Assembly (NCBI RefSeq): GCF_013408655.1
Contig: NZ_JACCBP010000001.1
Location: 3,100,001 to 3,164,000 of the forward strand
DNA: 64,000 nt
DNA from: Pigmentiphaga litoralis
Lineage (GTDB): Bacteria > Pseudomonadota > Gammaproteobacteria > Burkholderiales > Burkholderiaceae_B
Direction: 5' to 3'
In this document: in pieces, positions 26,663-39,213 of the stretch
How the letters are laid out: every line of letters begins with the position of its first letter
How positions within the stretch are numbered: the first letter of the stretch is position 1
Position numbers and translations under genes: made by a program
Notes under the pieces: generated by a model
What the model was told of the DNA's origin: nothing
Databases searched by the model: none
The model's input: the letters and a program-made list of their open reading frames with translations, nothing else

Positions 26663-27228
26663 GCGGCCAGCGTCAGGAAATTGCGCAGCAGCGCATGACC
26701 ATGTTCGCTCAGGATGGATTCGGGGTGGAACTGCACGCCCACCACCGGCAGCGTGCGATGCCGCACGCCCATGATCTCGCCGTCCAGCGTCTGCGCCGTC
26801 ACATCAAGGCAGTCCGGCACCTCGTCGCGGTCGATCGCCAGCGAATGGTAACGGATCACGGTGTAAGGCGACGGCAGATCGCGGAACACATCGGTGCCAC
26901 GGTGGGTAATCACCGACGTTTTGCCATGCATCAACTGCTGTGCGCGCACGATTTTGCCACCGAACGCGGCGCCGATGGCCTGATGCCCCAGGCACACGCC
27001 CAGGATCGGCACCTGCCCGGCAAACCTCTGGATCAGCGGCACCGAGATGCCGGCTTCCGCCGGGGAGCACGGCCCGGGCGACACGCAGATCCGGTCGGGC
27101 GCCAGGCGTTCGACCTCGTCCAGGGTGATCTCATCGTTGCGATACACGCGCACGTCTTCGCCGAGTTCGCCGAAGTACTGCACCAGGTTGTAGGTAAAGG
27201 AATCGTAATTGTCGAGCATGAGCAGCAT
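26659..27228 (-). CDS. trpG: anthranilate synthase component II (glutamine amidotransferase)
   Basis: A 189-residue class I amidotransferase: [19 protein letters not shown], the oxyanion strand [11 protein letters not shown], the nucleophile in [10 protein letters not shown], and His/Glu in [10 protein letters not shown]. It supplies ammonia to TrpE for anthranilate and may also serve p-aminobenzoate synthase. Unlike in Bordetella-type gene orders, trpE is not directly upstream. It is 9.5 kb away with unrelated genes between, so trpGDC-ung needs its own promoter. Confidence 0.96.
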
Positions 27229-27757
27229 GGGGCACCTGTCGTTCGCGAATCAGTCGCGATCAATGAAAAGTCGATGTGGCGCGGAAGGATCCGCGCGGGC
27301 AAGGGCTAATCGACAGGGCGCCATCGTCCGGCCGCGGCGGGACGGCGGGGTGCGTGGGGCGTATGAGCGCGAGTCAACGGCTGCCGGGGCAGGCGGTGCG
27401 CGAACGTCGGTAAAACGGAAGGGGGATACGTGCTGGGCATCGATCGGTCTCTGGAGTGAGCCGCCGCGCCTGGAGAGAGGATTCCGATACCTTGCCTGTC
27501 CGGGAACGGCGGCAAGGTGCGGATTCGTACCGCGTAAGCATGCCGCTTCTTAGAAGAAGCGCCACCACCACTTGGCAATACGAATCGGCGTCATCGACAT
27601 CATTTCTGGAATGCTTGAGAGATCGGTCTGGGACGCGCCGGGCGTAGGCACACGGCGCGTTGGCAAGAATACCAGCAACTGCGGGGAAGCGCCACGCGGA
27701 GACTTCGTGCCGTATCCTCTACATGCAACCGTCAATTACCTGCACCGAGGGGATGCA
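27229..27757. other. intergenic stretch at the split trp locus
   Basis: About 530 bases without a convincing gene. Small frames on both strands are Arg/Pro-rich and lack ribosome sites. It contains the trpG leader hairpin and a 7-bp inverted repeat CGCTTCT-TAGA-AGAAGCG (27544-27561) with no T-run. It must hold the trpGDC promoter, but I cannot point to convincing -35/-10 boxes. Confidence 0.5.
27279..27296 (-). other. hairpin in the trpG leader
   Basis: Perfect 7-bp stem GCGCGGA / TCCGCGC with a four-base loop, ending 51 bases before the trpG start. In the leftward transcript it is followed about 10 bases later by TTTT. It could be a weak terminator or leader structure; there is no Trp-rich leader ORF here. 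Confidence 0.35.
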
Positions 27758-28048
27758 ATGAACGAAGTCGACAACACATCGACCTGCGAGGGAGGTCAGC
27801 GAAAACGTGAATATCTACATCTGAAACTGATCGATGATGCTGAAAAAGGACTCGCGGACGTCGCGGCGGGAAAAGTAAAACCTGCAGCACCACATTGGCC
27901 GACATCACACGACGGCGCGAAAGCGAAGCGCGCCTTAATTCCACCGGGTCACCTGCGACTTGATATGTCGGTGCACCGACTTCTTCGCCGTCAGAATCAG
28001 AACGTGTATGCCATCCCGACCTGGACGGTGCGCGGCGCGCCCGGGTAG
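27758..28048 (+). CDS. small hypothetical protein, possible antitoxin remnant
   Basis: A 96-residue frame starting MNEVDNTSTCEGGQRKRE after a GAGGGG ribosome site. It lies in DNA clearly less GC-rich and with different codon use from its neighbours. The segment KLIDDAEKGLADVAAGKVKPA resembles the C-terminal part of RelB/Phd-type antitoxins. No toxin gene follows. The 3' end overlaps the last 52 bases of the converging TonB receptor gene, so the native end may be lost. The resemblance is suggestive only. Confidence 0.35.
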   Translation: MNEVDNTSTCEGGQRKREYLHLKLIDDAEKGLADVAAGKVKPAAPHWPTSHDGAKAKRALIPPGHLRLDMSVHRLLRRQNQNVYAIPTWTVRGAPG

Positions 28049-30114
28049 ACGTAGGACTGGAACGCGCCCTCGTCATAATCCTTGTTGAACAGGTTCCTGA
28101 CGTCCAGGTTGACGCGCAGTTTCCTGTTCACCTGGTAGAAGGCCAGCAGGTCGACCACGGTGTAGCGCTTCATGGTGTAGGCCCCCGTTCCGGTAGAGGC
28201 CGGGCGATCCGCCGTGTGTTTGATGCCGGCGCCCAGGCCCAGCCCGCGGGCCGGTCCTTCCTGAAAGGTGTACACGTTCAGCAAGCTCGCCATGGTGCGC
28301 GGAATGTTTGCCAGCCGCGTGCCTGCCGGCGCAACGTTGTCTTTGGTCACTTCGGCATCCACCAACGCGTAGCCGGCGATCACACGCCAGGCGGGGGTGA
28401 TGTTGCCCACCACGTTCAGGTCCAGTCCCTGGCTGCGCACTTCGCCCGTTGCAATGCGATAGCTGGAATCGACCGGGTCGACGGTCTGCACGTTCTGTTT
28501 GACCGTGTGGTACAGCGCGCCATTGACGCTAAGGGTGCGATCCAGCGCTTCCCATTTCACGCCGACCTCATTGGACCGGCCCTTCTCAGGGTCAAAGCCG
28601 CCCCCCAGCCGCTGTGCGCCTGTGTTGGGCTTGTAGGATCGCGCCGTGTTGGCGTACACCGCGACGGTGGGCGTCACGTCATACATCAGCCCAAAGCGCG
28701 GGGTGACAGCCGTATCGGATTTGGCAAAGCTGCGCGCGGCGGGTGACAGGTCGGTGTAGTCATGCTTGAAGCGCTCGAGCCGCACGCCCACCAGGGCCTT
28801 GAGCTTGTCGGTCAGGCTGATCTGGTCCTGCACGAACGCAGCCCAGGTGTTGAGCGATTCGCGGTCGTGGGTGGTGGTGCGGGTCAACGCAGGCCAGGGC
28901 TGGCCCACGGCCGGATTGAAGATATCGATCGGATAGGCGGTCGCCCCGGCGGCAGAGCGCTGGATGATCGACGCGTAGTCGTAGTTGTCGTATTCGACGC
29001 CTGTGAACAGCGTGTGCCGGATGCCCCAGGTGTCGACCTTGCCGGTCAGGTTCAATTGAACGGTGCGGTCCGTCCAGTCCAGCCTGCGGTAGTTGGCATT
29101 GCGCCCCAGCGTGCGGCCATCGCCTTGCAGGCCATTGGCTTCGACGGCATTGCCCTTGAGGGACCCATCCATCCATTGCACACCGCCCGCCAGCGTCCAG
29201 TCGTCATTGATGGCGTGATCGAAGCGCACCTGGGCCATGGCATTGTCGCTGTGCAGAAGATTGCCATTGCCCATCTCCCACAAGTTGACGCTGCGCGAGG
29301 ATCGTCCCTGCTGCGTCGTATAGGCGGTACGCCCGCGATCCAGCGGGGCGTTGTTGCGCATCAGGTCGGCTTCAAAAATGATCCGGGTCGCCTCGGTCAA
29401 TTGCCAGCTGATAACTGGAGAGACGCCGTACCGTTCGGTGTCTGCGCCATCACGGAACGTCTTGCCGCCCTCGGCCACCGCGTTCAGCCGATAGGCCAGC
29501 TTGCCTTCGGTGTCCAACGGACCGGTCGCATCGACTGTTGCGCGCCGCAGGCCTTGATCGCTCAGCTGGCTGCCGACCGTGACCGCGGGCCGCGACAGGG
29601 GCTGCTTGGACACGATGTTGAAGGTGCCGCCCGGATCGCCGCGTCCGTACAGGGCTGCCGACGGGCCGCGCACGACTTCCAGCCGCTCGATGGTGGACGC
29701 ATCGGGCGCCGTGGGGTAACCGCGATTGATCGGGAAACCGTTGCGATAGAACTCGCCACTGGTAAAGCCGCGCGTGCTGAAGAGCGCCAGCCCCTGCCCG
29801 CCAAAATTGTTGACGCGGCCCACGCCGCCCGCGTAATCGAGCACGTCGATCAGCCGCGTGGCGGCGGTGTCCTCCACGACATCGCGCGGCAGCACCGTGA
29901 CCGACTGGGGGGTGTCATGCAGCGGCGTATCGGTGCGCGTGGCGCTGGCCGACCGGGTGGCCCGGTAGCCAACGACGGGGCCTTCCGCCGTTTCGCCGGG
30001 TGCGTAGACCGTCACGGCATCCAGTTGGACGGCTGAAGGGGCACCCGGGGGCTGTTGTGCCCAGGCAAGCGATGAGGCGTTGAGAACGCACACCGAAACG
30101 ACGAGACGACGCAT
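27997..30114 (-). CDS. TonB-dependent siderophore receptor (FhuE/FpvA-like)
   Basis: A 705-residue outer-membrane receptor. The signal peptide ends SLAWA/QQPPG. The plug has DTPQSVTVLPRDVV, LFSTRGFTSGEFYRNGFP and ERLEVVRGPSAALYGRGDPGG; the barrel ends LFNKDYDEGAFQ...VQVGMAYTF with terminal Phe. It lacks the STN domain of the receptor at 3948-6446, so it is a transporter without sigma signalling. A Fur-type palindrome lies 27 bases upstream. The siderophore is probably hydroxamate- or ferrichrome-like, but this is weakly supported. Confidence 0.92.
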   Translation of the reverse strand: MRRLVVSVCVLNASSLAWAQQPPGAPSAVQLDAVTVYAPGETAEGPVVGYRATRSASATRTDTPLHDTPQSVTVLPRDVVEDTAATRLIDVLDYAGGVGRVNNFGGQGLALFSTRGFTSGEFYRNGFPINRGYPTAPDASTIERLEVVRGPSAALYGRGDPGGTFNIVSKQPLSRPAVTVGSQLSDQGLRRATVDATGPLDTEGKLAYRLNAVAEGGKTFRDGADTERYGVSPVISWQLTEATRIIFEADLMRNNAPLDRGRTAYTTQQGRSSRSVNLWEMGNGNLLHSDNAMAQVRFDHAINDDWTLAGGVQWMDGSLKGNAVEANGLQGDGRTLGRNANYRRLDWTDRTVQLNLTGKVDTWGIRHTLFTGVEYDNYDYASIIQRSAAGATAYPIDIFNPAVGQPWPALTRTTTHDRESLNTWAAFVQDQISLTDKLKALVGVRLERFKHDYTDLSPAARSFAKSDTAVTPRFGLMYDVTPTVAVYANTARSYKPNTGAQRLGGGFDPEKGRSNEVGVKWEALDRTLSVNGALYHTVKQNVQTVDPVDSSYRIATGEVRSQGLDLNVVGNITPAWRVIAGYALVDAEVTKDNVAPAGTRLANIPRTMASLLNVYTFQEGPARGLGLGAGIKHTADRPASTGTGAYTMKRYTVVDLLAFYQVNRKLRVNLDVRNLFNKDYDEGAFQSYVYPGAPRTVQVGMAYTF

Positions 30115-30141
30115 GCTGGAAATCCAAAGTTATGTCAGTTT

Positions 30142-30156
30142 TGAGAATATTTCTCA
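30142..30156 (-). promoter_or_regulatory. Fur-type box upstream of TonB receptor
   Basis: TGAGAATATTTCTCA is an inverted repeat with TGAGAA / TTCTCA arms around a 3-base centre, in an AT-rich island 27 bases before the receptor ATG. It fits the 7-1-7 form of Fur boxes and suggests iron repression. Confidence 0.7.
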
Positions 30157-30212
30157 TTCCTAATGTAACCTTTTCTTGCTTCCAGCTCATCCGTAGTGGC
30201 TGCAGTGTGGCC

Positions 30213-31196
30213 TTAGTCCAGCCGGATCCCCTGTGCCTTGATGATCGGGCCCCACCGGTTCGCCTCGCCCCGCGACAGGGCCGCGAACTGTTCGGGCGTG
30301 CCAGGCAGTGCTTCCATGCCGAAGTCGGTAAAGCGCTTTTGCACCGCCGGGTTGCTGAAGGCCTTGTTCAATTCCGCGTTGAGGCGCGACACCACGGCCG
30401 GGGGCATGCCGGCCGGGCCAAGCACGCCCTGGAAGGCGAAGACCTCGGTGTTCGGCACACCGACTTCGGCCAGGGTCGGGATGTCGGGCAGCAGCTTGCT
30501 GCGCTGGGCCGAGCCGATGGCCAGGACGCGCACCTTGCCGGCCTGCATGATCTGCAGGCCCGATGCCAGGTCCAGGAACATGCAGTTCACCTGTCCGCCC
30601 ATCACGTCGGCCATGGCAGGCGCCGCGCCGCGATAGGGAATGTGCGTGATGAAGGTGCCGGTGCGGTTCTTGAACATCTCCATGGCCAGGTGATGCGGCG
30701 AGCCGTTGCCGGGTGACGCGTAGTTCAGCTTGCCGGGATTGGCCTTGGCATAGGCCAGGAAGGCCTTGAAGTCCTTGGCCGGGAATTCGGGATTGACGAC
30801 CAGGGCCAGCGGAAAGCGGCCGATCGCGCCGATGTAGGTGAAGTCTTTTTCGGGATTGAAGGGCAGCTTGCCGAACAGGAATTCGTTGAAGGCGAGCACG
30901 GCGTTGTCGGCCGACATGATGGTGTAGCCGTCGGGCTTGCTCTTGGCGACCAGGTCGGCGCCGATGTTGGTCGATGCGCCCGGGCGGTTGTCGATCACCA
31001 GGGATTGCCCCAGCGCCGGGCGGATGGCGTCGGCCAGGGTGCGCGCGATCACGTCGGTGCCCCCGCCGGCCGGGTAAGGCACGACCCATTTGACGAGTTG
31101 TTCGGGATAGCCTTGGGCGCGGGCCAGGGACGGCAGTGTGGTCGATGCCGCGGCGGCCGCCATGCCGGCCAGGAAGGTTCTGCGTTGCAGTGTCAT
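30213..31196 (-). CDS. Bug/TctC-family solute-binding protein
   Basis: A 327-residue periplasmic receptor. The N-terminus MTLQRRTFLAGMAAAAASTT has a twin-arginine-like RRTFLA motif before the cleavage site SLARA/QGYPE. Family segments are VKWVVPYPAGGGTDVIART, VIDNRPGASTNIG and VNCMFLDLASG. A GGAGA ribosome site precedes ATG 31196. It is the last gene of the hydroxylase operon, 42 bases after the DUF2783 gene, so its ligand may be the operon's aromatic substrate (inference). No tctAB genes are near. Confidence 0.9.
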   Translation of the reverse strand: MTLQRRTFLAGMAAAAASTTLPSLARAQGYPEQLVKWVVPYPAGGGTDVIARTLADAIRPALGQSLVIDNRPGASTNIGADLVAKSKPDGYTIMSADNAVLAFNEFLFGKLPFNPEKDFTYIGAIGRFPLALVVNPEFPAKDFKAFLAYAKANPGKLNYASPGNGSPHHLAMEMFKNRTGTFITHIPYRGAAPAMADVMGGQVNCMFLDLASGLQIMQAGKVRVLAIGSAQRSKLLPDIPTLAEVGVPNTEVFAFQGVLGPAGMPPAVVSRLNAELNKAFSNPAVQKRFTDFGMEALPGTPEQFAALSRGEANRWGPIIKAQGIRLD

Positions 31197-31238
31197 TGTT
31201 GATGTCTCCAGGGGAAATTCGAATCTGGGAAAGCGAAT

Positions 31239-31442
31239 CTAGGAAAGCGAAGGCATGGGCAGGTCCTCCAGCGCGTCGGTTAGCGCCTGGCGGCAGCGCG
31301 CCTCGTCGCCGACCTGCTCGAACAGCAGCAGGGCCAGACGCGCCAGAAACAGGGATTCGCGTTCCGGACCGGCGTCGGTCACGGCGTTGGCGCACGCCGC
31401 GTACAGGCGGTCGCGCGCGTCGGGGGCCAGCGGGGCGCTCAT
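31239..31442 (-). CDS. DUF2783-like small protein
   Basis: A 67-residue protein beginning MSAPLAPDARDRLYAACANA with ARLALLLFEQVGDEARCRQAL. This fits the DUF2783 family of short helical proteins usually encoded directly after an FAD-dependent aromatic hydroxylase. ATG 31442 shares ATGA with the hydroxylase stop, so the two are translationally coupled. The function is unknown; a flavoprotein partner or stabiliser is a guess based on linkage. Confidence 0.75.
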   Translation of the reverse strand: MSAPLAPDARDRLYAACANAVTDAGPERESLFLARLALLLFEQVGDEARCRQALTDALEDLPMPSLS

Positions 31443-33394
31443 GAGGCCTCCAGCGGGGAAGTGGATGATGACAACGTTGACGACGACAACGTTGTGGGCG
31501 GCAACGTTGCGGGTGACAACGTTGCAGGTGACAACCTTTCGGGCGGCAGCGTTGATGCCGGCAAACATAGGGCGCGGGCGAGCGCCTGCGCAAGCACGCC
31601 GTCCGCCAGCCTGCCAGACCAGCGGGCCGCAACGTGGCTGTCGGGCCGCAGCAGATACGTGGCGCCGGTGGCACCAGATGCACCGGTGGCACCAGATGCG
31701 CCGGTTGCCCCGGCGGCGCCAAGTGCGGCAAGCGCAGGTTCGCCAGTGTCCTCACGACGCAGCACGTGAACCGACAGGTGCGGATCCTGCCGCAAACACG
31801 CTTCGATCTCTGCGCTGCCGGGCGGCTCGGTGCCCACCGCCAGCACCACAAACCCCGGCGTCTGCAGCAGGTCACTCAGATGCCTGTCCGGTCCCAGTTT
31901 CAGGTTCGGCATGACCTCGCCCGGCAGGGGTCCGGCTGCCAGGGCATCGCTGTCCGACGACAGCGGCGACGCCGCGTAGCGCACGGCTTGCGTCTGCCGC
32001 GGATTGATCAGATTCGCGATATCCCGATGCCGGCCCGACAAGGACAACGCCGCTTCGCGCAGCAGGTCGAACCCCCGGGACGGCGGCGACATGAACTCGG
32101 TACTGCGCATGGCGTTCTCGGCATTCACATGGAACGCGGCGATCCGTTCACCGGAATAGCTGTCCAGCAATCCCGTGCCAGCCACGCCGCGCGCAACCCT
32201 CGCCAGTTTCCACGCCAGATTGTCGGCGTCGTCAAAGCCCGAGTTCAATCCGCGCACGCCAAAGATCGGCATGGCATGCGCCGCATTGCCCGCGAACAGC
32301 ACACGATCGTGACGGTAGCTGGGCAAGGTCATGGCCCCGGCGCGGTACACCGACGTCCACACCGTGTGCCAGGGCAGGTGCCCCTCGCCAATCGCATCCA
32401 GATGCCGCTGCACGAACTCGGCCACGGCGGCGGGTTGCAGCGCGTCTTCGGTCGATTGCCCTTCCCGCAACTGGTAGTCGATGCGCCAAATGTCGTCGGG
32501 CTGCCGGTGCATCAGCACGGTCGACCCCGGATTCCAGGGCGGATCGAACCAGGCCCGGCGCTCGGTCGGGTGACTGCTGTGCAGTTCGATATCGATGATG
32601 ACGTAGCGGCCTTCATAGGCCGTGCCTTCCAGGCTCAGCCCCAACGATTTGCGCACGAAGCTCTGCCCGCCATCGCAGGCCGCCAGCCACGCGCCGCGCA
32701 ACTGATAGGCCCCTGCAGGCTGGCGCACCGACAGCATCACGTGATCGTCGTGCTGCGTCAGTGCGGTCACTTCGGTGCTCCACCGCACATCAATCAGGCC
32801 TGGTGTCGCGGCGTTGCGGCGCTCGATTTCCTGCAGCAGATAGTGCTCGATGTAGTACTGCTCGAGGTTGATCATGGGCGGCAGCTTTTGCGTGTCGTCG
32901 TGCGGCATCGCAAACCGGAACACCTCGTCCGTCTTGTAATAGCTGCGGCCGCCTGTCCACGGCAGGCCCTTGGCAAGAAACGCCGGCAAGGCGCCCAGGC
33001 GCTCCACGATTTCCAGGCTGCGGCGCGAAATGCAGGCGGCGCGGCTGCCCACGCATACCGTGTCGTCCAGTTCCAGGACCACGCTGCGCACGCCGTGGTT
33101 GGCCAGACCCAGCGCCAGGGCCATGCCGACCGGCCCCCCGCCGGCGATCACCACCGGATGCACGCCCGGCTCGACGCCGTGCACCAATGCAGGCATTGGC
33201 GACGTGTATCGCGTGTAGTGAAAGGCGCCGACCGAAGGCGGCATGTCACCGGCAACAGGCGGCAGGGGCCCGGTGCCAGCGTCGCCAGGGCGTGCCGTGG
33301 GAAAGGGGGATGTCATGCGGGAATTCATGGAGGAAGCCTTTGCACCTTGTACGCCTGCCGACACGGAATGACCATCGGCGGAAACGCGCGTCAT
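31439..33394 (-). CDS. FAD-dependent aromatic hydroxylase (PheA/TfdB group)
   Basis: A 651-residue group A flavoprotein monooxygenase. After about 65 variable residues comes FHYTRYTSP, then the FAD motif PVVIAGGGPVGMALALGL, the GSRAACISRRSLEI segment, WLAACDGGQSFVRKSLG and the second FAD motif VLFAGNAAHAMPIFGVRGLNSG. The thioredoxin-like C-terminal domain ends in Gly/Ala/Ser/Thr and Leu-Ser-Pro-Thr repeat tails encoded by in-frame tandem DNA repeats. ATG 33394 overlaps the hydrolase stop by four bases. It probably hydroxylates a phenolic acid using NAD(P)H. Confidence 0.87.
   Translation of the reverse strand: MTRVSADGHSVSAGVQGAKASSMNSRMTSPFPTARPGDAGTGPLPPVAGDMPPSVGAFHYTRYTSPMPALVHGVEPGVHPVVIAGGGPVGMALALGLANHGVRSVVLELDDTVCVGSRAACISRRSLEIVERLGALPAFLAKGLPWTGGRSYYKTDEVFRFAMPHDDTQKLPPMINLEQYYIEHYLLQEIERRNAATPGLIDVRWSTEVTALTQHDDHVMLSVRQPAGAYQLRGAWLAACDGGQSFVRKSLGLSLEGTAYEGRYVIIDIELHSSHPTERRAWFDPPWNPGSTVLMHRQPDDIWRIDYQLREGQSTEDALQPAAVAEFVQRHLDAIGEGHLPWHTVWTSVYRAGAMTLPSYRHDRVLFAGNAAHAMPIFGVRGLNSGFDDADNLAWKLARVARGVAGTGLLDSYSGERIAAFHVNAENAMRSTEFMSPPSRGFDLLREAALSLSGRHRDIANLINPRQTQAVRYAASPLSSDSDALAAGPLPGEVMPNLKLGPDRHLSDLLQTPGFVVLAVGTEPPGSAEIEACLRQDPHLSVHVLRREDTGEPALAALGAAGATGASGATGASGATGATYLLRPDSHVAARWSGRLADGVLAQALARALCLPASTLPPERLSPATLSPATLPPTTLSSSTLSSSTSPLEAS
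31471..31560 (-). repeat. 15-bp tandem repeat, six copies, coding
   Basis: Units start at 31471, 31486, 31501, 31516, 31531 and 31546 with core ACAACGTTG or close variants. The period is exact and in frame. It encodes the pentapeptide series LSPAT LSPAT LPPTT LSSST LSSST at the C-terminus of the hydroxylase. Confidence 0.9.
31665..31718 (-). repeat. 18-bp tandem repeat, three copies, coding
   Basis: CCGGTGGCACCAGATGCA is repeated at 31665, 31683 and, diverged, 31701. On the minus strand it encodes GATGAS-type hexapeptides in the hydroxylase, about 50 residues before the second repeat tail. Confidence 0.85.
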
Positions 33395-34557
33395 AGCCCG
33401 TCTGCCCAGCCTGCGATGGCGTCCGCTGCCTGCGGCACCAAGGCAGGTTGCCCGGCCAGATAGTGGTTGCCGCCAACGATATCGACATTGCGGATGCGAT
33501 CGCCGCCCGCGGCCATCCACGCATCGCGTGTGCTCGGGAAGGTCGACTGGTCCGCCGTATAGGTCAGCAACAGCACCGGCACCGACGTGCGCGCCAGATT
33601 GGTCGGCCCATCGGCTTGCGACCGGGACGACCACTGCGACAGGAAAGCCGTCAGCGACGTGGTGCGGCCCATCGCATTGGCCGAATAGTTCACCTGCCGC
33701 GCATCGCCCCACACGCTGCCGGGCGCGCGGTCATTTGCGTCGATAGACAGGTCCAGGCAACGCGGGTCGGCATGCGTGCGATACACGATGAAGGCCTGAT
33801 CGCGCGGCGCGCCCGGCGTCGCGCGCAGTGTGCGCAGCCGGTCCATCGCCCACTGTTCGATGCGGTCCAATCGCGCCTGCTGCCCGGCGGAAAATCGCGC
33901 CAGAAAGTCCGCGTCATAACGCACTTCCTGTACACCCTGCACTTCGCGCACACCTTGCACACCCTGCCCGCCATGCCGCGGGTCATACATGTCCAGCGCC
34001 GGGTCGACCGACATTGGATCGTGTTCGTCGGTCACCGACGGATCGATCCAGTCGCGCATCAGGCGGCTGCGGCCCAGGTGCGCCGCACACAGCGCAATGC
34101 CATCGACCGGCGGCAGATCGTCAGCATGCAGATGGGTGGGGTCGCCATCCGGAAACTGCGTTGCGGTCAGCCGCTCGGCCTGGGCCTGGTAGAAACTGGC
34201 CAGGGCCGCGCCGCCCGAATTGCCGATCAGCACCACCTTCTCGTACCCCGCGTCACGCAGGTATTTGACGCCCGCGCCCAGGTCCTGGATCGCCCGTTCC
34301 ATCAGCAGCAACGTGTCGTTGCCCATGTAGCGGGAGTTCAACCCCATGCAGCAGATGCCCCGCTCGGCCAGCGGCTCGATCAGATAGTGCCCCATGAAAT
34401 TGCTGGTCGGGTGCATGACGATGGCAGCCACCTTGCGGCGATCCGCCGGCGCACGGTAGGCGCCAAAGATGCGGGGCCGCAGCATCTGCAGTCCGGACTG
34501 GCTTTCCATCGACGCGCCCGGTTTGACGTCGATCACGGCAATCTTCAGGTCAGACAT
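33391..34557 (-). CDS. alpha/beta hydrolase
   Basis: A 388-residue hydrolase beginning MSDLKIAVIDVKPGA. The nucleophile elbow is VVLIGNSGGAALAS near residue 110, the acid probably Asp in LLLTYTADQSTFP, and the catalytic His in VGGNHYLAG. It has a large cap or insert that includes the repeat GVQGVREVQGVQEV. In operon context it may hydrolyse a ring-cleavage product or an ester precursor. It overlaps the VOC gene upstream by 8 bases and the hydroxylase downstream by four. Confidence 0.82.
   Translation of the reverse strand: MSDLKIAVIDVKPGASMESQSGLQMLRPRIFGAYRAPADRRKVAAIVMHPTSNFMGHYLIEPLAERGICCMGLNSRYMGNDTLLLMERAIQDLGAGVKYLRDAGYEKVVLIGNSGGAALASFYQAQAERLTATQFPDGDPTHLHADDLPPVDGIALCAAHLGRSRLMRDWIDPSVTDEHDPMSVDPALDMYDPRHGGQGVQGVREVQGVQEVRYDADFLARFSAGQQARLDRIEQWAMDRLRTLRATPGAPRDQAFIVYRTHADPRCLDLSIDANDRAPGSVWGDARQVNYSANAMGRTTSLTAFLSQWSSRSQADGPTNLARTSVPVLLLTYTADQSTFPSTRDAWMAAGGDRIRNVDIVGGNHYLAGQPALVPQAADAIAGWADGL
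33919..33963 (-). repeat. 9-bp tandem repeat, five copies, coding
   Basis: Five 9-base units encode GVQ GVR EVQ GVQ EVR in the hydrolase insert. The units differ by one to three bases each. It is in frame. Confidence 0.8.
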
Positions 34558-35119
34558 GGGCGGCCTGCCCTGCCAGCCTGGCGGCTTTGCGCGCGGTCCA
34601 CTCGTCCAGATCGGCGCGTGCATGCAAGGCATGCGCGTCCATCTCGGATTGCGGCACGGTGGGTGTCGTCAGTTCGACCCGAATGCCATTGGGATCAAAG
34701 AAATAGATGGACTCGATGATGTGGTGATCGGTCACGCCCAGCACCTCGACCCCCGCGCCTTCGAGCCGGGCCTTGGCCGCCAGCAGCGCCGCCACCGACT
34801 CCACGCGCAAGGCAATGTGATTGACCCACGACGGCGTGTTCGGCGACGGATCGGCCTTGATGTCGTCGCCCAGGTCGAAGAACGCGATGTAGGAACCATC
34901 GCGCATCTGGAAAAAAATGTGGACGTAGGGGCAGTATTCGCCCGTGCTGGGCACGTGGTCGCTCTTGATGACATGCACCAGCGGCAGGCCCAGCAGGTCT
35001 TCATAAAACCGGCGGGTTTCCTCGCTATCGCGGCAACGCCACGCGAAATGGTGCAAGCCCAGCACCGGCACGGCCTGGGCAGCCGTTGTTGCCGCGCCGC
35101 CAGAAGGTGTCGTGGTCAT
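34550..35119 (-). CDS. VOC-family dioxygenase/glyoxalase-fold protein
   Basis: A 189-residue vicinal-oxygen-chelate protein with likely metal ligands His24 (LHHFAWRC), His101 (WVNHIALRV) and Glu149 (FFDPNGIRVEL). It also has the core YVHIFFQMRDGSYIAFFDLG. Single-module VOC enzymes include extradiol dioxygenases and isomerases. Placement ahead of a hydrolase and a flavin hydroxylase suggests ring cleavage. It starts the leftward operon and faces a divergent LysR gene across 95 bases. Confidence 0.82.
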   Translation of the reverse strand: MTTTPSGGAATTAAQAVPVLGLHHFAWRCRDSEETRRFYEDLLGLPLVHVIKSDHVPSTGEYCPYVHIFFQMRDGSYIAFFDLGDDIKADPSPNTPSWVNHIALRVESVAALLAAKARLEGAGVEVLGVTDHHIIESIYFFDPNGIRVELTTPTVPQSEMDAHALHARADLDEWTARKAARLAGQAAHV

Positions 35120-35214
35120 GTCTCCGCTCCTTCCTGTTATCGATGCAGGTCATTGGAACGCGGCCCAACCTATGATTCAATCGAAATTATTTCATCGACT
35201 CATGAACAGACTGT

Positions 35215-36123
35215 ATGAATCTGACCCTGCGCCAGCTTCGCGCTTTTACCGCCGTGGCCGACACCGGCAGCTTCACGGCGGCGGCGGCGACGCTGCATCT
35301 CACCCAGTCAGCATTGAGCGTGCTCATCCGTGAAATGGAAGCGGACCTGGGCGTCAGGCTCTTCGATCGCCATACGCGGCGCGTGGTGCTGTCCGAGGCC
35401 GGCCGGGAATTCCAGCCGGCGGTGCAGCGCATGCTGGCCGACCTGGCGACGGCAGTGTCCGGGCTGACCGACCTGAGGGACAAGCGGCGTGGGGTGCTGC
35501 GCCTGGCCGCGCCGCAGTTCATGGCCTGCACCTGGATGCCGCCCGTGATCGCAGCCTTTCGCGCGCGTTACCCCGCCATTGAAGTGCGCCTGGCCGATAC
35601 GCCACCCGAGCACTTGCTGGATGGTATTCCGTCGGGGGAAGTTGAACTGGCCATCGGCCAGGACATCGAGGTGGACGACACCTTCGAGCGCCAGACACTG
35701 TTCAAGGACAGGCACTGGCTGGTCTGTCCGGCAGGCCACCCCTTTGCCAAACGCCGCCAGGTGGCGTGGAGCGATCTGGCGGACCAGACCTTCATCGCCC
35801 CCACGCGCGACTTTCTGCGGCGCGTGCTGCCTGAGCTGGATGCCGCCGGGCGCGAGGCCCTGGCGGCGCCAGGAACGCAGTCCGTGTCCTACATCACGAC
35901 AGCGTTAGGCATGACCGAAGCCGGGCTGGGCGTGACAGTGTGCCCGAGCTATGCGGCCCGCACGGTGCAGGCGCATGGGCTGGTCATGGTGCCATTGGTA
36001 AAGCCGGCCTTTCACCGCACGATCTGCGTGTACGGCATGTCGCGCCGCGCGCCTTCGCCCGCCGCGCAAAGTTTTATCGACGTGCTGCACGAGCACGTGG
36101 CGCAGCAGGCAAAGCGGCGCTGA
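35215..36123 (+). CDS. LysR-family transcriptional regulator
   Basis: A 302-residue LTTR. The winged helix is NLTLRQLRAFTAVADTGSFT...LSVLIREMEADLGVRLFDRHTRR and the effector domain starts about residue 90. It is divergent from the VOC-hydrolase-hydroxylase operon, so it very likely controls it. The 95-base gap holds an AT-rich patch (35172-35214) with ATGATTCAATCGAAATTATT, a plausible operator. ATG 35215 has no obvious ribosome site. Confidence 0.92.
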   Translation: MNLTLRQLRAFTAVADTGSFTAAAATLHLTQSALSVLIREMEADLGVRLFDRHTRRVVLSEAGREFQPAVQRMLADLATAVSGLTDLRDKRRGVLRLAAPQFMACTWMPPVIAAFRARYPAIEVRLADTPPEHLLDGIPSGEVELAIGQDIEVDDTFERQTLFKDRHWLVCPAGHPFAKRRQVAWSDLADQTFIAPTRDFLRRVLPELDAAGREALAAPGTQSVSYITTALGMTEAGLGVTVCPSYAARTVQAHGLVMVPLVKPAFHRTICVYGMSRRAPSPAAQSFIDVLHEHVAQQAKRR

Positions 36124-36194
36124 GCCGCGTCAGGCGTTTTCAAGTGCCATCGCGGTCCGCCTGCTGGCACGCTGCGGGGCTTTGATGCAACGCC

Positions 36195-36617
36195 CTACAG
36201 CGCCTCAAGCGCCAGCGCGATCCCCTGCCCGCCGCCAATGCACAGCGTGACGATGCCGCGCCGCAGTCCATCGCGCCGCATGCTGTGCAGCAGCCGCGTC
36301 GTCAGCACCGCGCCGGTCGCGCCAATGGCATGGCCATGGGCGATCGCGCCGCCTTCAATATTGACGATGTCTTCCGGCAAGGACAGCTCCCGCAGGCACG
36401 CCAGCGTGATTGCCGCAAACGCCTCGTTGATCTCGATCCGTTCCACGTCGCCGATCGACCACTTGGCCCGCGCCAGGGCCTGCTGCACCGCGGGAACTGG
36501 CCCGATGCCAAACATGCCGGGCTCGACCGCCGCAATGCCGAACGACACCAGCCGCGCCCAGGGCGTCATGAGCGATCGATCTTTTCCTGTCGGCGATCGT
36601 GGCGGGGCCGGGGGCAA
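36195..36617 (-). pseudogene. 3'-terminal fragment of an acetyl-CoA acetyltransferase (thiolase)
   Basis: About 120 residues match the C-terminal third of thiolases: ARLVSFGIAAVEPGMFGIGP, VERIEINEAFAAI, the active-site His region NIEGGAIAHGHAIGATGA and the catalytic Cys region IVTLCIGGGQGIAL. The N-terminal about 270 residues, including the nucleophilic Cys, are missing; upstream bases (36570-36690) encode nothing thiolase-like in any frame I checked. It is therefore a remnant and cannot be active. It lies at the junction between the accessory block and trpE. Confidence 0.85.
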
Positions 36618-36694
36618 GCGCCGCCCGATAAGGTGTCACACAGGCGGTCCTGGACACCGCAACGGATGCCGATGCGATGTCCACCCTCAAGGAC

Positions 36695-38215
36695 TCAAAT
36701 CGGGTCATCCAGCCCCGACTGCACCTGCTCCGCCGCGCGCAGCACGGCGCGGGCCTTGGCTTCCGTCTCGGCCCATTCCTTTTCAGGCTCCGAATCCGCA
36801 ACGACGCCCGCGGCGGCCTGCACGTACAGCATGCCGTTCTTGATCACGCCCGTGCGGATCGCGATCGCCACGTCCATCTCACCGCCATAGCTCAGGTAGC
36901 CCGCGGCGCCTGCGTAGATGCAGCGGCGCACGGGTTCCAGCTCGTCGATCAGTTCCATGGCGCGGACCTTGGGCGCGCCCGACAGCGTGCCGGCCGGGAA
37001 GGTGGCGCGCAGGACGTCCATCGAACTCATGCCTTCGCGCAGGGTGCCCGTCACGTTGGACACCAGATGCATCACATGCGAATACCGTTCGATGGCCATC
37101 TGGTCGGTTACGACCACCGAGCCGATGTCCGCGATGCGGCCCACGTCGTTGCGGGCCAGGTCGATCAGCATGACGTGCTCGGCAATTTCTTTCGGGTCCG
37201 CGCGCAGCTCCTCGGCCAGGGCGGCGTCTTCTTCGGGCGTCGCGCCGCGCGGGCGGGTGCCGGCCAGCGGGCGGATGGTGACCTTCTGGCGGGTCGCGCC
37301 GCCTTCGGTCACGACTTCCTGCCGCACCAGGATCTCGGGTGACGCGCCCACTACCTGGAAGTCGCCAAAATTCCAGAAGTACATGTAGGGCGACGGGTTC
37401 AGCGACCGCAGTGCGCGGTACAAGGACAGCGGCGAGTCGCGGAAGGGCTTGGCGATCACCTGCCCCACCTGCACCTGCATCAGGTCGCCGGCGGCAATGT
37501 ATTCCTTGGCCTTGACGACCGCGGCCAGGTAGTCAGCCTTGGGGAAGTTGCGCTGGGTTTCGGTGGGCAGGCTGGCCTGGCTGTAGGGAATGTCGACGGA
37601 CTTGCGCAGCTGGGCGCGCAGGTCGCGCAACCGGTTGCGGGCGCGGGGATAGGCTTCGGGCAAGGTCGGGTCGGCATACACGACCAGGTACAGCCGGCCG
37701 GTCAGGTTGTCGACGATGGCGAGTTCATCGATCAAGAGCAGCAGCATGTCGGGCACCGGATCGCCCATGCCGGCGGGGTCGGGCTTGGTGCACGGTCCCA
37801 GCTTTTTTTCGATGTGGCGGACCATGTCGTAGCCGAAGTAGCCGGCCAGCCCACCGATGAAGCGCGGCATGCCCGGCCGCAGTGCGACCTTGAAGCGCTT
37901 CTGGTAGTGGGCCACGAAAGCCAGCGGATCGCCGTCATGCGTTTCGGTCACGACGCCGTCTTCGACGACTTCCGTGACGGTGCCGTGGGTGCGAAGAAAG
38001 GCGCGGGCAGGCAGGCCGATGAAGGAGTAGCGGCCGAAACGCTCGCCGCCCACCACGGACTCAAGCAGGCAGCTCATGGCGCCCTTGGCCGGGCCGGTCT
38101 GGGCGAGCTTCAGGTACAGCGCGAGCGGCGTGTCGAGGTCGGCATAGGTTTCGGCGACCAGCGGGATGCGGTTGTAGCCTTGGGCGGCAAGCGCCTGGAA
38201 TTCGACTTCTGTCAT
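36695..38215 (-). CDS. trpE: anthranilate synthase component I
   Basis: A 506-residue chorismate-utilising enzyme. The N-terminal part has the feedback-site region (VAETYADLDTPLALYLKL); the C-terminal catalytic domain has GDLMQVQVGQVIAKPF, ASPEILVR, IRPLAGTRPRG, DLARNDVGRIAD, SNVTGTLREG, TFPAGTLSGAPKVRAME and YLSYGGEMD. ATG 38215 follows GAGGACACC. It is preceded by a leader-peptide gene and attenuation-type hairpins, but trpG does not follow. Confidence 0.97.
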   Translation of the reverse strand: MTEVEFQALAAQGYNRIPLVAETYADLDTPLALYLKLAQTGPAKGAMSCLLESVVGGERFGRYSFIGLPARAFLRTHGTVTEVVEDGVVTETHDGDPLAFVAHYQKRFKVALRPGMPRFIGGLAGYFGYDMVRHIEKKLGPCTKPDPAGMGDPVPDMLLLLIDELAIVDNLTGRLYLVVYADPTLPEAYPRARNRLRDLRAQLRKSVDIPYSQASLPTETQRNFPKADYLAAVVKAKEYIAAGDLMQVQVGQVIAKPFRDSPLSLYRALRSLNPSPYMYFWNFGDFQVVGASPEILVRQEVVTEGGATRQKVTIRPLAGTRPRGATPEEDAALAEELRADPKEIAEHVMLIDLARNDVGRIADIGSVVVTDQMAIERYSHVMHLVSNVTGTLREGMSSMDVLRATFPAGTLSGAPKVRAMELIDELEPVRRCIYAGAAGYLSYGGEMDVAIAIRTGVIKNGMLYVQAAAGVVADSEPEKEWAETEAKARAVLRAAEQVQSGLDDPI

Positions 38216-38347
38216 GGTGTCCTCGAGAACATGCGGTGTCTGGTGCACCGCCCGCATCTTGGGTACCGGAGTCGGACATGACATGACGACGCCTCCGGTC
38301 CTTCAGGACGCGGGCGGGGTCGATTCGAAAACTTGGGGTCTAACGAT

Positions 38348-38378
38348 GGCCGGACGTTCAGTCGTTGAACGATCGGCC
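38348..38378 (-). promoter_or_regulatory. stem-loop of the trp attenuator region
   Basis: Imperfect hairpin with GGCCG / CGGCC outer and CGTTCA / TGAACG inner stems (loop GTCGT). It begins nine bases after the trpL stop, and a TTTT run lies about 17 bases further along the leftward transcript. A second stem CGCCACC / GGTGGCG (38409-38429) spans the Trp codons themselves. I cannot settle from sight which pairing is terminator and which antiterminator. Confidence 0.6.
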
Positions 38379-38386
38379 GGGAAGAA

Positions 38387-38461
38387 TCACCACCACCCGG
38401 CTGACGAACGCCACCAGCGCCAGGTGGCGCAGGTCGGGATCGCGGGGGTGATGATCAGCAT
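38387..38461 (-). CDS. trpL: trp operon leader peptide
   Basis: A 24-codon frame, MLIITPAIPTCATWRWWR plus SSAGWW, with five Trp codons at 14, 16, 17, 23 and 24. It lies between gph and trpE on the same strand, 170 bases upstream of the trpE ATG, with stem-loops between. Five Trp in 24 residues, two tandem pairs and the position match attenuator leader peptides: ribosomes starved for Trp-tRNA would stall here and favour antitermination. The start has no strong ribosome site, which lowers certainty slightly. Confidence 0.82.
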   Translation of the reverse strand: MLIITPAIPTCATWRWWRSSAGWW

Positions 38462-38496: not shown

Positions 38497-39213
38497 TCAG
38501 TGCATCGTCAGCGGCAGGGGTTCGGATCCGGTGGCTGCCGATGCGGTGCGTGACGCGGTCCACTCGGCGGCTTCCTTGATGCTTGCAACTATACCATCGG
38601 CTTCGATGGATCGGATATCGCGGCCTTCGTTGTAGCCATAGGGCACGAGCAGGACCGTGCAGCCGGCCGCGCGGCCCGACGATGCGTCGTTCATGGAATC
38701 GCCGATCACCAGCGCGTCGGCCGGGGCGACGCCCAGCTGTTCGCACGCGTACAGCATGGGCATGGGATCAGGCTTCTTGCGATCCACCGTGTCGCCGCTG
38801 ACGACCACGTCGAAAAAGGCATGCAGCCCGATATTCTTGAGCAGCGGTCCGGTAAATTCGGCCGCCTTGTTGGTGACCACGGCCAGCTTGAGACCCTGCG
38901 CGCGCATGGCCTGCAGGCCTTCAATGACGCCGTCAAAGATGCGCGTCTTTTCGCCGTTGATCATGTGATACGCGTGGCGGAACGAGGCCAGCGCTTCGGG
39001 GAACCGTTCGTGTTCGGTGGCTTCGTCCATGCTCGCGGCCAGCGCGCGGTGCACCAGGTTTTCGACGCCCTTGCCCACGTAGGTGGCGATGACATCTTCG
39101 CGCAGCGGCGCCATGCCCAGGTCCACGCGCATGGCGTTGACGGCGTAGGCCAGGTCGGGCACCGAGTCGACCAGCGTGCCGTCGAGGTCGAACAATACAG
39201 CGTGCAAGGGCAT
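38497..39213 (-). CDS. gph: phosphoglycolate phosphatase
   Basis: A 238-residue HAD-superfamily phosphatase: nucleophile motif LFDLDGTLVDSVPDL, a helical cap, motif II in AVVTNKAAEF, Lys in RKKPDPMPML and motif IV VIGDSMNDASSGRAAG. It removes 2-phosphoglycolate from DNA repair or oxygenase side reactions. It sits in the common rpe-gph-trpE order. Confidence 0.94.
   Translation of the reverse strand: MPLHAVLFDLDGTLVDSVPDLAYAVNAMRVDLGMAPLREDVIATYVGKGVENLVHRALAASMDEATEHERFPEALASFRHAYHMINGEKTRIFDGVIEGLQAMRAQGLKLAVVTNKAAEFTGPLLKNIGLHAFFDVVVSGDTVDRKKPDPMPMLYACEQLGVAPADALVIGDSMNDASSGRAAGCTVLLVPYGYNEGRDIRSIEADGIVASIKEAAEWTASRTASAATGSEPLPLTMH

Follow-up and report, generated by a model that had tools for sequence, protein, structure and literature searches.

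A conserved Trp-rich leader ahead of trpE in Pigmentiphaga litoralis and its relatives: a probable attenuator in a genus without a recognisable intrinsic terminator

Background

Attenuation of trp operons is a textbook RNA switch, and the attenuator of the Escherichia coli trp operon is represented in Rfam as Trp_leader. The short Trp-rich reading frame located between gph and trpE in the window (i.e., the whole stretch of 64,000 nucleotides analysed here) raises two questions, namely whether trpE is controlled at this locus by a ribosome translating a leader peptide and, if so, through which step such a switch would lower trpE expression. A scan of the window against Rfam (including Trp_leader and T-box; gathering score) yielded no matches. 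We addressed these questions by comparing the locus with trpE upstream regions from the same family and from other betaproteobacterial families.

A 24-codon leader ORF with five Trp codons

An earlier note on this DNA had claimed a 24-codon leader peptide with five Trp codons upstream of trpE. This ORF, here designated trpL, is present on the minus strand (38461-38387), starts with ATG at 38461, ends with TGA at 38389-38387, lacks a Shine-Dalgarno motif and encodes the peptide MLIITPAIPTCATWRWWRSSAGWW, in which five TGG codons specify Trp. The main Trp cluster, TGG CGC TGG TGG (W14 R W16 W17; 38411-38422, minus strand), corresponds to a WRWW-type cluster found across the family loci and is the presumed stall site; a second pair of Trp codons, TGG TGG (38390-38395, minus strand), is located directly ahead of the stop codon. 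The locus thus shows a hallmark of attenuators, i.e., a small ORF upstream of a trp gene in which Trp codons are clustered.

The downstream gene, trpE (36695-38215, minus strand; Pfam Anth_synt_I_N and Chorismate_bind), most likely starts at ATG 38215 (MTEVEFQ) rather than at ATG 38284, because a start of the type MTE(V/I/L)EF is common to the relatives; with this start, the gap between leader and trpE amounts to 171 nt. The upstream neighbour is gph (38497-39213, minus strand), which encodes a HAD phosphatase (Pfam HAD_2). The nearest named locus is that of P. litoralis KCTC 22165 (L093), with a TrpE 98.8 percent identical to the TrpE of the window. The genes trpG and trpD (27228-25607, minus strand) are located approx. 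9.5 kb downstream of trpE, and the interval between trpE and trpG (27228-36695) contains a thiolase C-terminal ORF, a LysR regulator, a glyoxalase/dioxygenase-like protein and a FAD-binding hydroxylase; in P. humi (L104) and in L011, trpG is located close behind trpE.

Conservation of the leader in the family

Among the 61 genomes searched, 60 contained trpE. The upstream regions of the 30 best trpE loci, i.e., the window's own and 29 others, all from the window's family, were read, and an ORF of 22-29 codons with a WRWW-type Trp-rich end was found in 30 of 30, with the variants WRYWR in L024 and WRWWY in L013. Seven more distant family loci showed WRWW in four cases (L182, L183, L185 and L186) and WRWC in one (L184); a Trp leader was absent from the upstream regions read for the remaining two (L187 and L282). 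When genome contigs were scanned with a pattern, 102 stretches were obtained (this number, like the counts of 127, 106 and 21 loci used below, includes some genomes twice, under two handles), 93 of which had trpE 134-208 nt downstream of the Trp core. The genera represented include Achromobacter, Bordetella, Alcaligenes, Pusillimonas, Paenalcaligenes, Pelistega, Zwartia, Pigmentiphaga and Verticiella. Five of the pattern matches (L043, L048, L057, L085 and L121) were without trpE and were dropped as chance matches, and four (L032, L055, L067 and L099) were kept though a trpE match is absent from the available stretch. In one metagenome bin titled Bordetella parapertussis (L110), the leader is almost the same as in L054 and Zwartia hollandica (L122) and differs from the Bordetella leaders seen; the title of this bin may be wrong.

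Overall, the Trp leader ahead of trpE is real, and these loci indicate many short leader genes of the sort that gene callers tend to miss. The expectation that Trp codons and stems should recur in relatives was borne out, for the Trp codons by the 30 leaders and for the stems by the comparison of helices presented below.

Transcription and translation start signals

A TATAGT hexamer inside the 3' end of gph (38588-38593, minus strand) was present in 29 of the 30 loci and, 34-188 nt upstream of the leader ATG, in 119 of 127 family loci. This hexamer may represent a -10 element, which in the window would be positioned approx. 126 nt ahead of the leader. A promoter scan of the window did not detect a full promoter consensus. 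Within gph, the hexamer includes ATA, an Ile codon that is typically rare in genomes of high GC content. TATAGT was also observed in the gph end of L174 and L175 (families f12 and f20), where a Trp leader was not found and trpE is located close behind gph.

The earlier note had regarded the missing ribosome-binding site as the weak point of the leader call. The absence itself was confirmed, but it is the rule in the family, as only 1 of 127 family leaders is preceded by a Shine-Dalgarno-like motif; it therefore provides no evidence against the leader. These counts vary with the motif list used: with a looser list (AGAG/GAGA added), a Shine-Dalgarno motif was found at 8 of 127 leaders as compared to 113 of 126 trpE genes. 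In four loci (L226, L227, L243 and L281), the leader ATG is located a few bases after a TGA that may be the gph stop codon (frame assumed), an arrangement that would point to translational coupling and might account for the absence of a Shine-Dalgarno motif.

Alternative helices at the window locus

Two mutually exclusive helices are predicted at the locus, on the basis of both comparison and predicted energy. In the first (1:2), region 1 in the 5' part of the leader ORF (38441-38457, minus strand) pairs with region 2, the 3' end of the ORF including the second Trp pair and the stop codon (GCCGGGTGGTGGTGATTC; 38383-38404, minus strand); the duplex of 38457-38441 with 38402-38384 has a predicted energy of -22.8 kcal/mol. 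When 49 dissimilar family sequences (Pigmentiphaga included) were compared to permuted pairings, the mean energy of own 1:2 helices was -18.0 kcal/mol as compared to -15.3 kcal/mol for permuted ones, and none of 5000 permutations was as low. In the second (2:3), region 2 (38404-38383) pairs with region 3 (CGAATCGACCCCGCCCGCGTCCTGAA; 38302-38327, minus strand), which overlaps a 3:4 hairpin (38287-38322, minus strand) predicted by folding at the place of the relatives' terminator, with no contiguous U-tract after it. The support for helix 1:2 is stronger than for helix 2:3, which in the window's genus rests mainly on a common GAATC motif in region 3. Row by row, the energy of helix 2:3 is hardly better than that of shuffles, of which 3 of 100 were as good in the window and up to 34 of 100 in other rows; in L010 and L011, the best 2:3 duplex is located elsewhere than at GAATC.

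The two stems proposed in the earlier note are present in the sequence, but their role as the switch was not supported, the relevant hairpin being that at 38322-38287. The first, GGCC...GGCC (38348-38378, minus strand), is also found by folding, is located in the spacer and falls outside the predicted switch; the second, CGCCACC/GGTGGCG across the Trp codons (38409-38429, minus strand), is nested inside helix 1:2, and a similar nested hairpin was obtained in the fold.

A terminator-type attenuator in most Alcaligenaceae

In the family outside Pigmentiphaga and Verticiella, a GC-rich hairpin followed by a U-run is located approx. 97-142 nt past the Trp core. This pattern fits 102 of 106 loci, which represent 52 distinct sequences once identical ones are merged; the four exceptions are L032, which ends early, and L052, L101 and L126, which show variant hairpins. 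A general terminator rule was satisfied by 80 of the 106 loci and by 2 of the 21 Pigmentiphaga/Verticiella loci. The 5' arm of the terminator (GCCCGGAA) can alternatively pair with a stretch close to the 3' end of the leader ORF (UUCCGGGU), which would form an antiterminator. Two positions before the conserved core of this 2:3 helix, the 52 sequences showed T-A in 33, G-C in 5 and A-T in 2 cases, i.e., 40 of 52 were paired as compared to a mean of 27.0 in shuffled data (0 of 2000 shuffles as high), which represents compensatory change at this position. The other flank positions in this sister clade (-1, -3 and -4) showed no excess over shuffles. Overall, these sequence patterns point, for most Alcaligenaceae, to a classical textbook attenuator with helices 1:2, 2:3 and 3:4 and the main Trp cluster between regions 1 and 2.

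Two Rfam families, Bp2_287 (RF02424) and anti-hemB, gave weak sub-threshold matches in one relative and were rejected as leader homologues, because the terminator hairpin accounts for most of these matches. Across 120 genomes, RF02424 gave one match over the cut-off, on contig 1 of G153; the trpE gene of this genome is on contig 14.

Pigmentiphaga and Verticiella keep the predicted helices without a contiguous U-tract

A contiguous U-tract after the hairpin, and hence a 3:4 hairpin with U-tract, was found in none of the 12 genomes (11 Pigmentiphaga and one Verticiella). L004, seen again as L106, passes a looser terminator rule by virtue of an interrupted U-rich tail (TGTTTGCT). Two weak T4 calls were not counted as terminators: in L002, four U follow a short hairpin (-8.8 kcal/mol), and in L010 the run is located 169 nt away from the core. 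Intrinsic termination of the classical type is therefore not predicted at 38300-38380. The proposal in the earlier note that trpE is controlled by ribosome-mediated attenuation is thus partly supported, whereas the specific stems and a terminator are not.

Pigmentiphaga and Verticiella keep helix 1:2 and show hardly any variation in region 2 (GGGTGGTGGTGATTC). Nearly identical leader cores were observed across the 11 Pigmentiphaga, with TrpE identities down to 81 percent. GAATC is the single 5-mer common to all 12 spacers; it is the complement of GATTC at the leader stop in region 2, and the C-rich stretch after GAATC is complementary to a further part of region 2. Among the other family spacers, GAATC was found in 6 of 106. 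When the spacers of five divergent rows were shuffled, GAATC was common to them in 0 of 1000 trials; as such shuffles contained 0.40 common 5-mers on average, one common 5-mer is unusual mainly for being GAATC.

In a TrpE tree with 38 rows, the terminator-bearing genera formed one clade (support 100/98) and Pigmentiphaga another (96/94), with Verticiella beside both clades at an unresolved fork. This topology would be compatible with either loss or gain of the U-tract.

Trp leaders in other betaproteobacterial families

Upstream regions from other families were represented by 124 loci, i.e., 100 hand-picked among the matches listed so as to spread over families and 24 added; the set includes L282, a remote representative of the window's own family, and trpE starts could be assigned for 123 loci. 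A locus was counted if a Trp leader ended no more than 100 nt from trpE, a rule drawn up after part of the loci had been read. By this rule, a Trp leader was present in 55 of the 123 loci, representing 24 of 47 family labels (some loci within one family being near copies), as compared to 20 of 2460 dinucleotide shuffles and none of the 123 reverse complements. No leader was found under the 100-nt rule for 23 family labels. Trp-rich ORFs further upstream of trpE, beyond the rule, were observed in f38 and f49; those of L205, L206 and L287 (family f38) are short ORFs with two Trp pairs (e.g., MFKPFGRWWQGGWWR) that end 115-257 nt before trpE.

A terminator-like site before trpE was absent in 48 of these 55 leaders and present by the general rule in 7, of which the two of f7 are convincing; a T5 run in the spacer was found for 15 of 55. 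We compared the pairing of the 60 nt upstream of the first Trp codon with the trpE site (-28 to +5). The mean energy of pairing with the own site was -23.2 kcal/mol as compared to -16.9 kcal/mol with permuted sites from other families; in 20 draws of 2000, no permutation was as low, and family-mean z was negative in 23 of 24 families. Control windows from +30 and +50 gave no signal (13 of 24 each). Compared to shuffles of the same stretch, own-site pairing was in the lowest 5 percent for 35 of 55 leaders and in the lowest 1 percent for 27 of 55, with negative family means in 21 of 24. As a control, the 3' end of the leader was in the lowest 5 percent for 8 of 52 (approx. 3 expected; family-mean z -0.07). 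In the terminator-bearing members of the window's family, such pairing of the leader 5' part with the trpE site was absent (mean z +0.70; negative in 12 of 99). This pairing beyond chance with the own ribosome-binding site suggests that many other families may use translational attenuation, where a stalled ribosome would keep the masking strand busy. In one locus (L162), the start of the leader and the start region of trpE are the two arms of a long, nearly perfect inverted repeat composed of a CACAGAGACACAGAGG-type unit; here, the masking helix looks as though it had been derived from a repeat.

Proposed mechanism and alternative explanations

For the family, the comparative evidence supports ribosome-mediated attenuation of trpE well; for the window, such control is likely, and we consider it probable that the window locus is a Trp attenuator of this kind. 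The comparison documents the leader and its conservation, helix 1:2, the common 2:3 partner and the absence of a contiguous U-tract; we infer leader translation, stalling and the way in which the 3:4 state lowers expression. Transcription would start in the 3' end of gph, as indicated by TATAGT, and the leader would be translated by a ribosome. With enough Trp, the ribosome would reach the stop codon and cover region 2, region 3 would fold with region 4 and trpE expression would be reduced. With little Trp, the ribosome would stall at WRWW and block helix 1:2, region 2 would pair with region 3 and trpE would be expressed.

The likeliest last step may be Rho-dependent termination in the C-rich spacer, which helix 2:3 would shield; this is a guess, offered tentatively and with somewhat less than even confidence. 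The C/G ratio of the spacer, a Rho signature, was 1.25-1.49 in the 12 rows and 1.14-1.92 in 21 relatives; as it is not raised above the relatives, it provides no positive sign of Rho. In a variant of the same mechanism, which we regard as unlikely, the 3:4 hairpin would terminate transcription without a U-tract through NusA/NusG or pausing, so that Rho would not be needed. This variant is consistent with the interrupted U-rich tail of L004 and with the folding predicted at the equivalent place, which ranges from -18 to -33 kcal/mol and was found in all 12 rows; in 5 of these (L005, L008, L009, L011 and L017), however, the best fold there differs from the 3:4 hairpin.

We also regard it as unlikely that the 5' end of the leader pairs with the trpE ribosome-binding site and that a stalled ribosome frees the site, i.e., that control in the window is translational. 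Such pairing exists in other betaproteobacterial families, some full folds of Pigmentiphaga pair the leader start with the trpE start region, and Verticiella showed a z of -2.35 against the sites of other families. Against shuffles, however, Verticiella showed a z of -0.09 and 0 of 12 Pigmentiphaga/Verticiella rows were significant; in the window, z was +0.61 against other families' sites and -0.53 against shuffles, i.e., the leader 5' part did not pair with its own trpE site beyond chance. Another choice of segment gave a mean z of -0.86 over the 12 rows, with 1 of 12 in the lowest 5 percent, and did not hold up. Moreover, the predicted accessibility of the site showed no consistent difference between a stalled and a finished ribosome, being higher with the former in 6 of 12 rows. 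As accessibility shows no dependence on state and pairing is at background level, site masking is unsupported in Pigmentiphaga. Finally, it is improbable that the leader is a relic and the remaining helices functionless leftovers in Pigmentiphaga, as the absence of a contiguous U-tract in 12 of 12 genomes and of a recognised output step would allow, because the leader core has stayed nearly identical despite TrpE identities down to 81 percent and GAATC has been retained by all 12 spacers despite its rarity elsewhere in the family.

A joint reading of these data, which in our view could equally well hold or fail, is that many betaproteobacterial families mask the trpE site (translational attenuation), that Alcaligenaceae use a transcription attenuator, and that Pigmentiphaga and Verticiella, with helices 1:2 and 2:3 but without an intrinsic terminator and beside the terminator-bearing clade, represent a possible intermediate. 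The output of trp attenuation would then seem to have been rebuilt within one bacterial order: most Alcaligenaceae have an intrinsic terminator, Pigmentiphaga shows none, and many other families would mask the ribosome-binding site. If true, the change between kinds of attenuation becomes testable with reporters; the leaders also provide a hypothesis for trpE regulation in these bacteria.

Comparison with known systems

Among the papers listed by a literature search on trp leaders or attenuation in Bordetella, Achromobacter, Alcaligenes, Pigmentiphaga and Betaproteobacteria and on translational attenuation of trpE (titles and abstract starts, with most subscription journals outside its scope), none was found to describe the arrangements reported here. 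Vitreschak and colleagues reportedly surveyed proteobacterial attenuators in 2004. For the betaproteobacterial leader that would mask the trpE site, no earlier report was found within this scope, and an earlier mention may exist.

In the tnaC and mgtA leaders, a leader peptide is coupled to Rho-dependent termination, which is like the output guessed for the window in that no intrinsic terminator is involved. The tnaC leader controls catabolism and detects free Trp by arrest of the nascent chain. Another amino-acid leader, also without an obvious intrinsic terminator, can be set beside the window by description, and differs in amino acid, genes and phylum. In the LEU element of Actinobacteria (PMC1262725), leader codons pair with the Shine-Dalgarno sequence of a biosynthetic gene, in what is described as a pseudoknot before leuA with a run of Leu codons in the stem. 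This element resembles the betaproteobacterial pairing observed outside the window, except that in the latter the pairing stretch precedes the Trp codons.

The E. coli trp attenuator and S. meliloti trpL-trpE(G), the latter as described in PMC7298713, share with the window a Trp-rich leader ORF ahead of trpE and, as proposed here for the window, alternative helices and stalling at Trp codons as the sensor. According to PMC7298713, S. meliloti trpL is a leaderless mRNA, as opposed to the possible -10 element approx. 126 nt upstream of the leader in the window. Unlike in both systems, an intrinsic terminator was not seen in the window's genus, and the main Trp cluster of the window separates region 1, within the 5' part of the leader ORF, from region 2 at the 3' end of this ORF.
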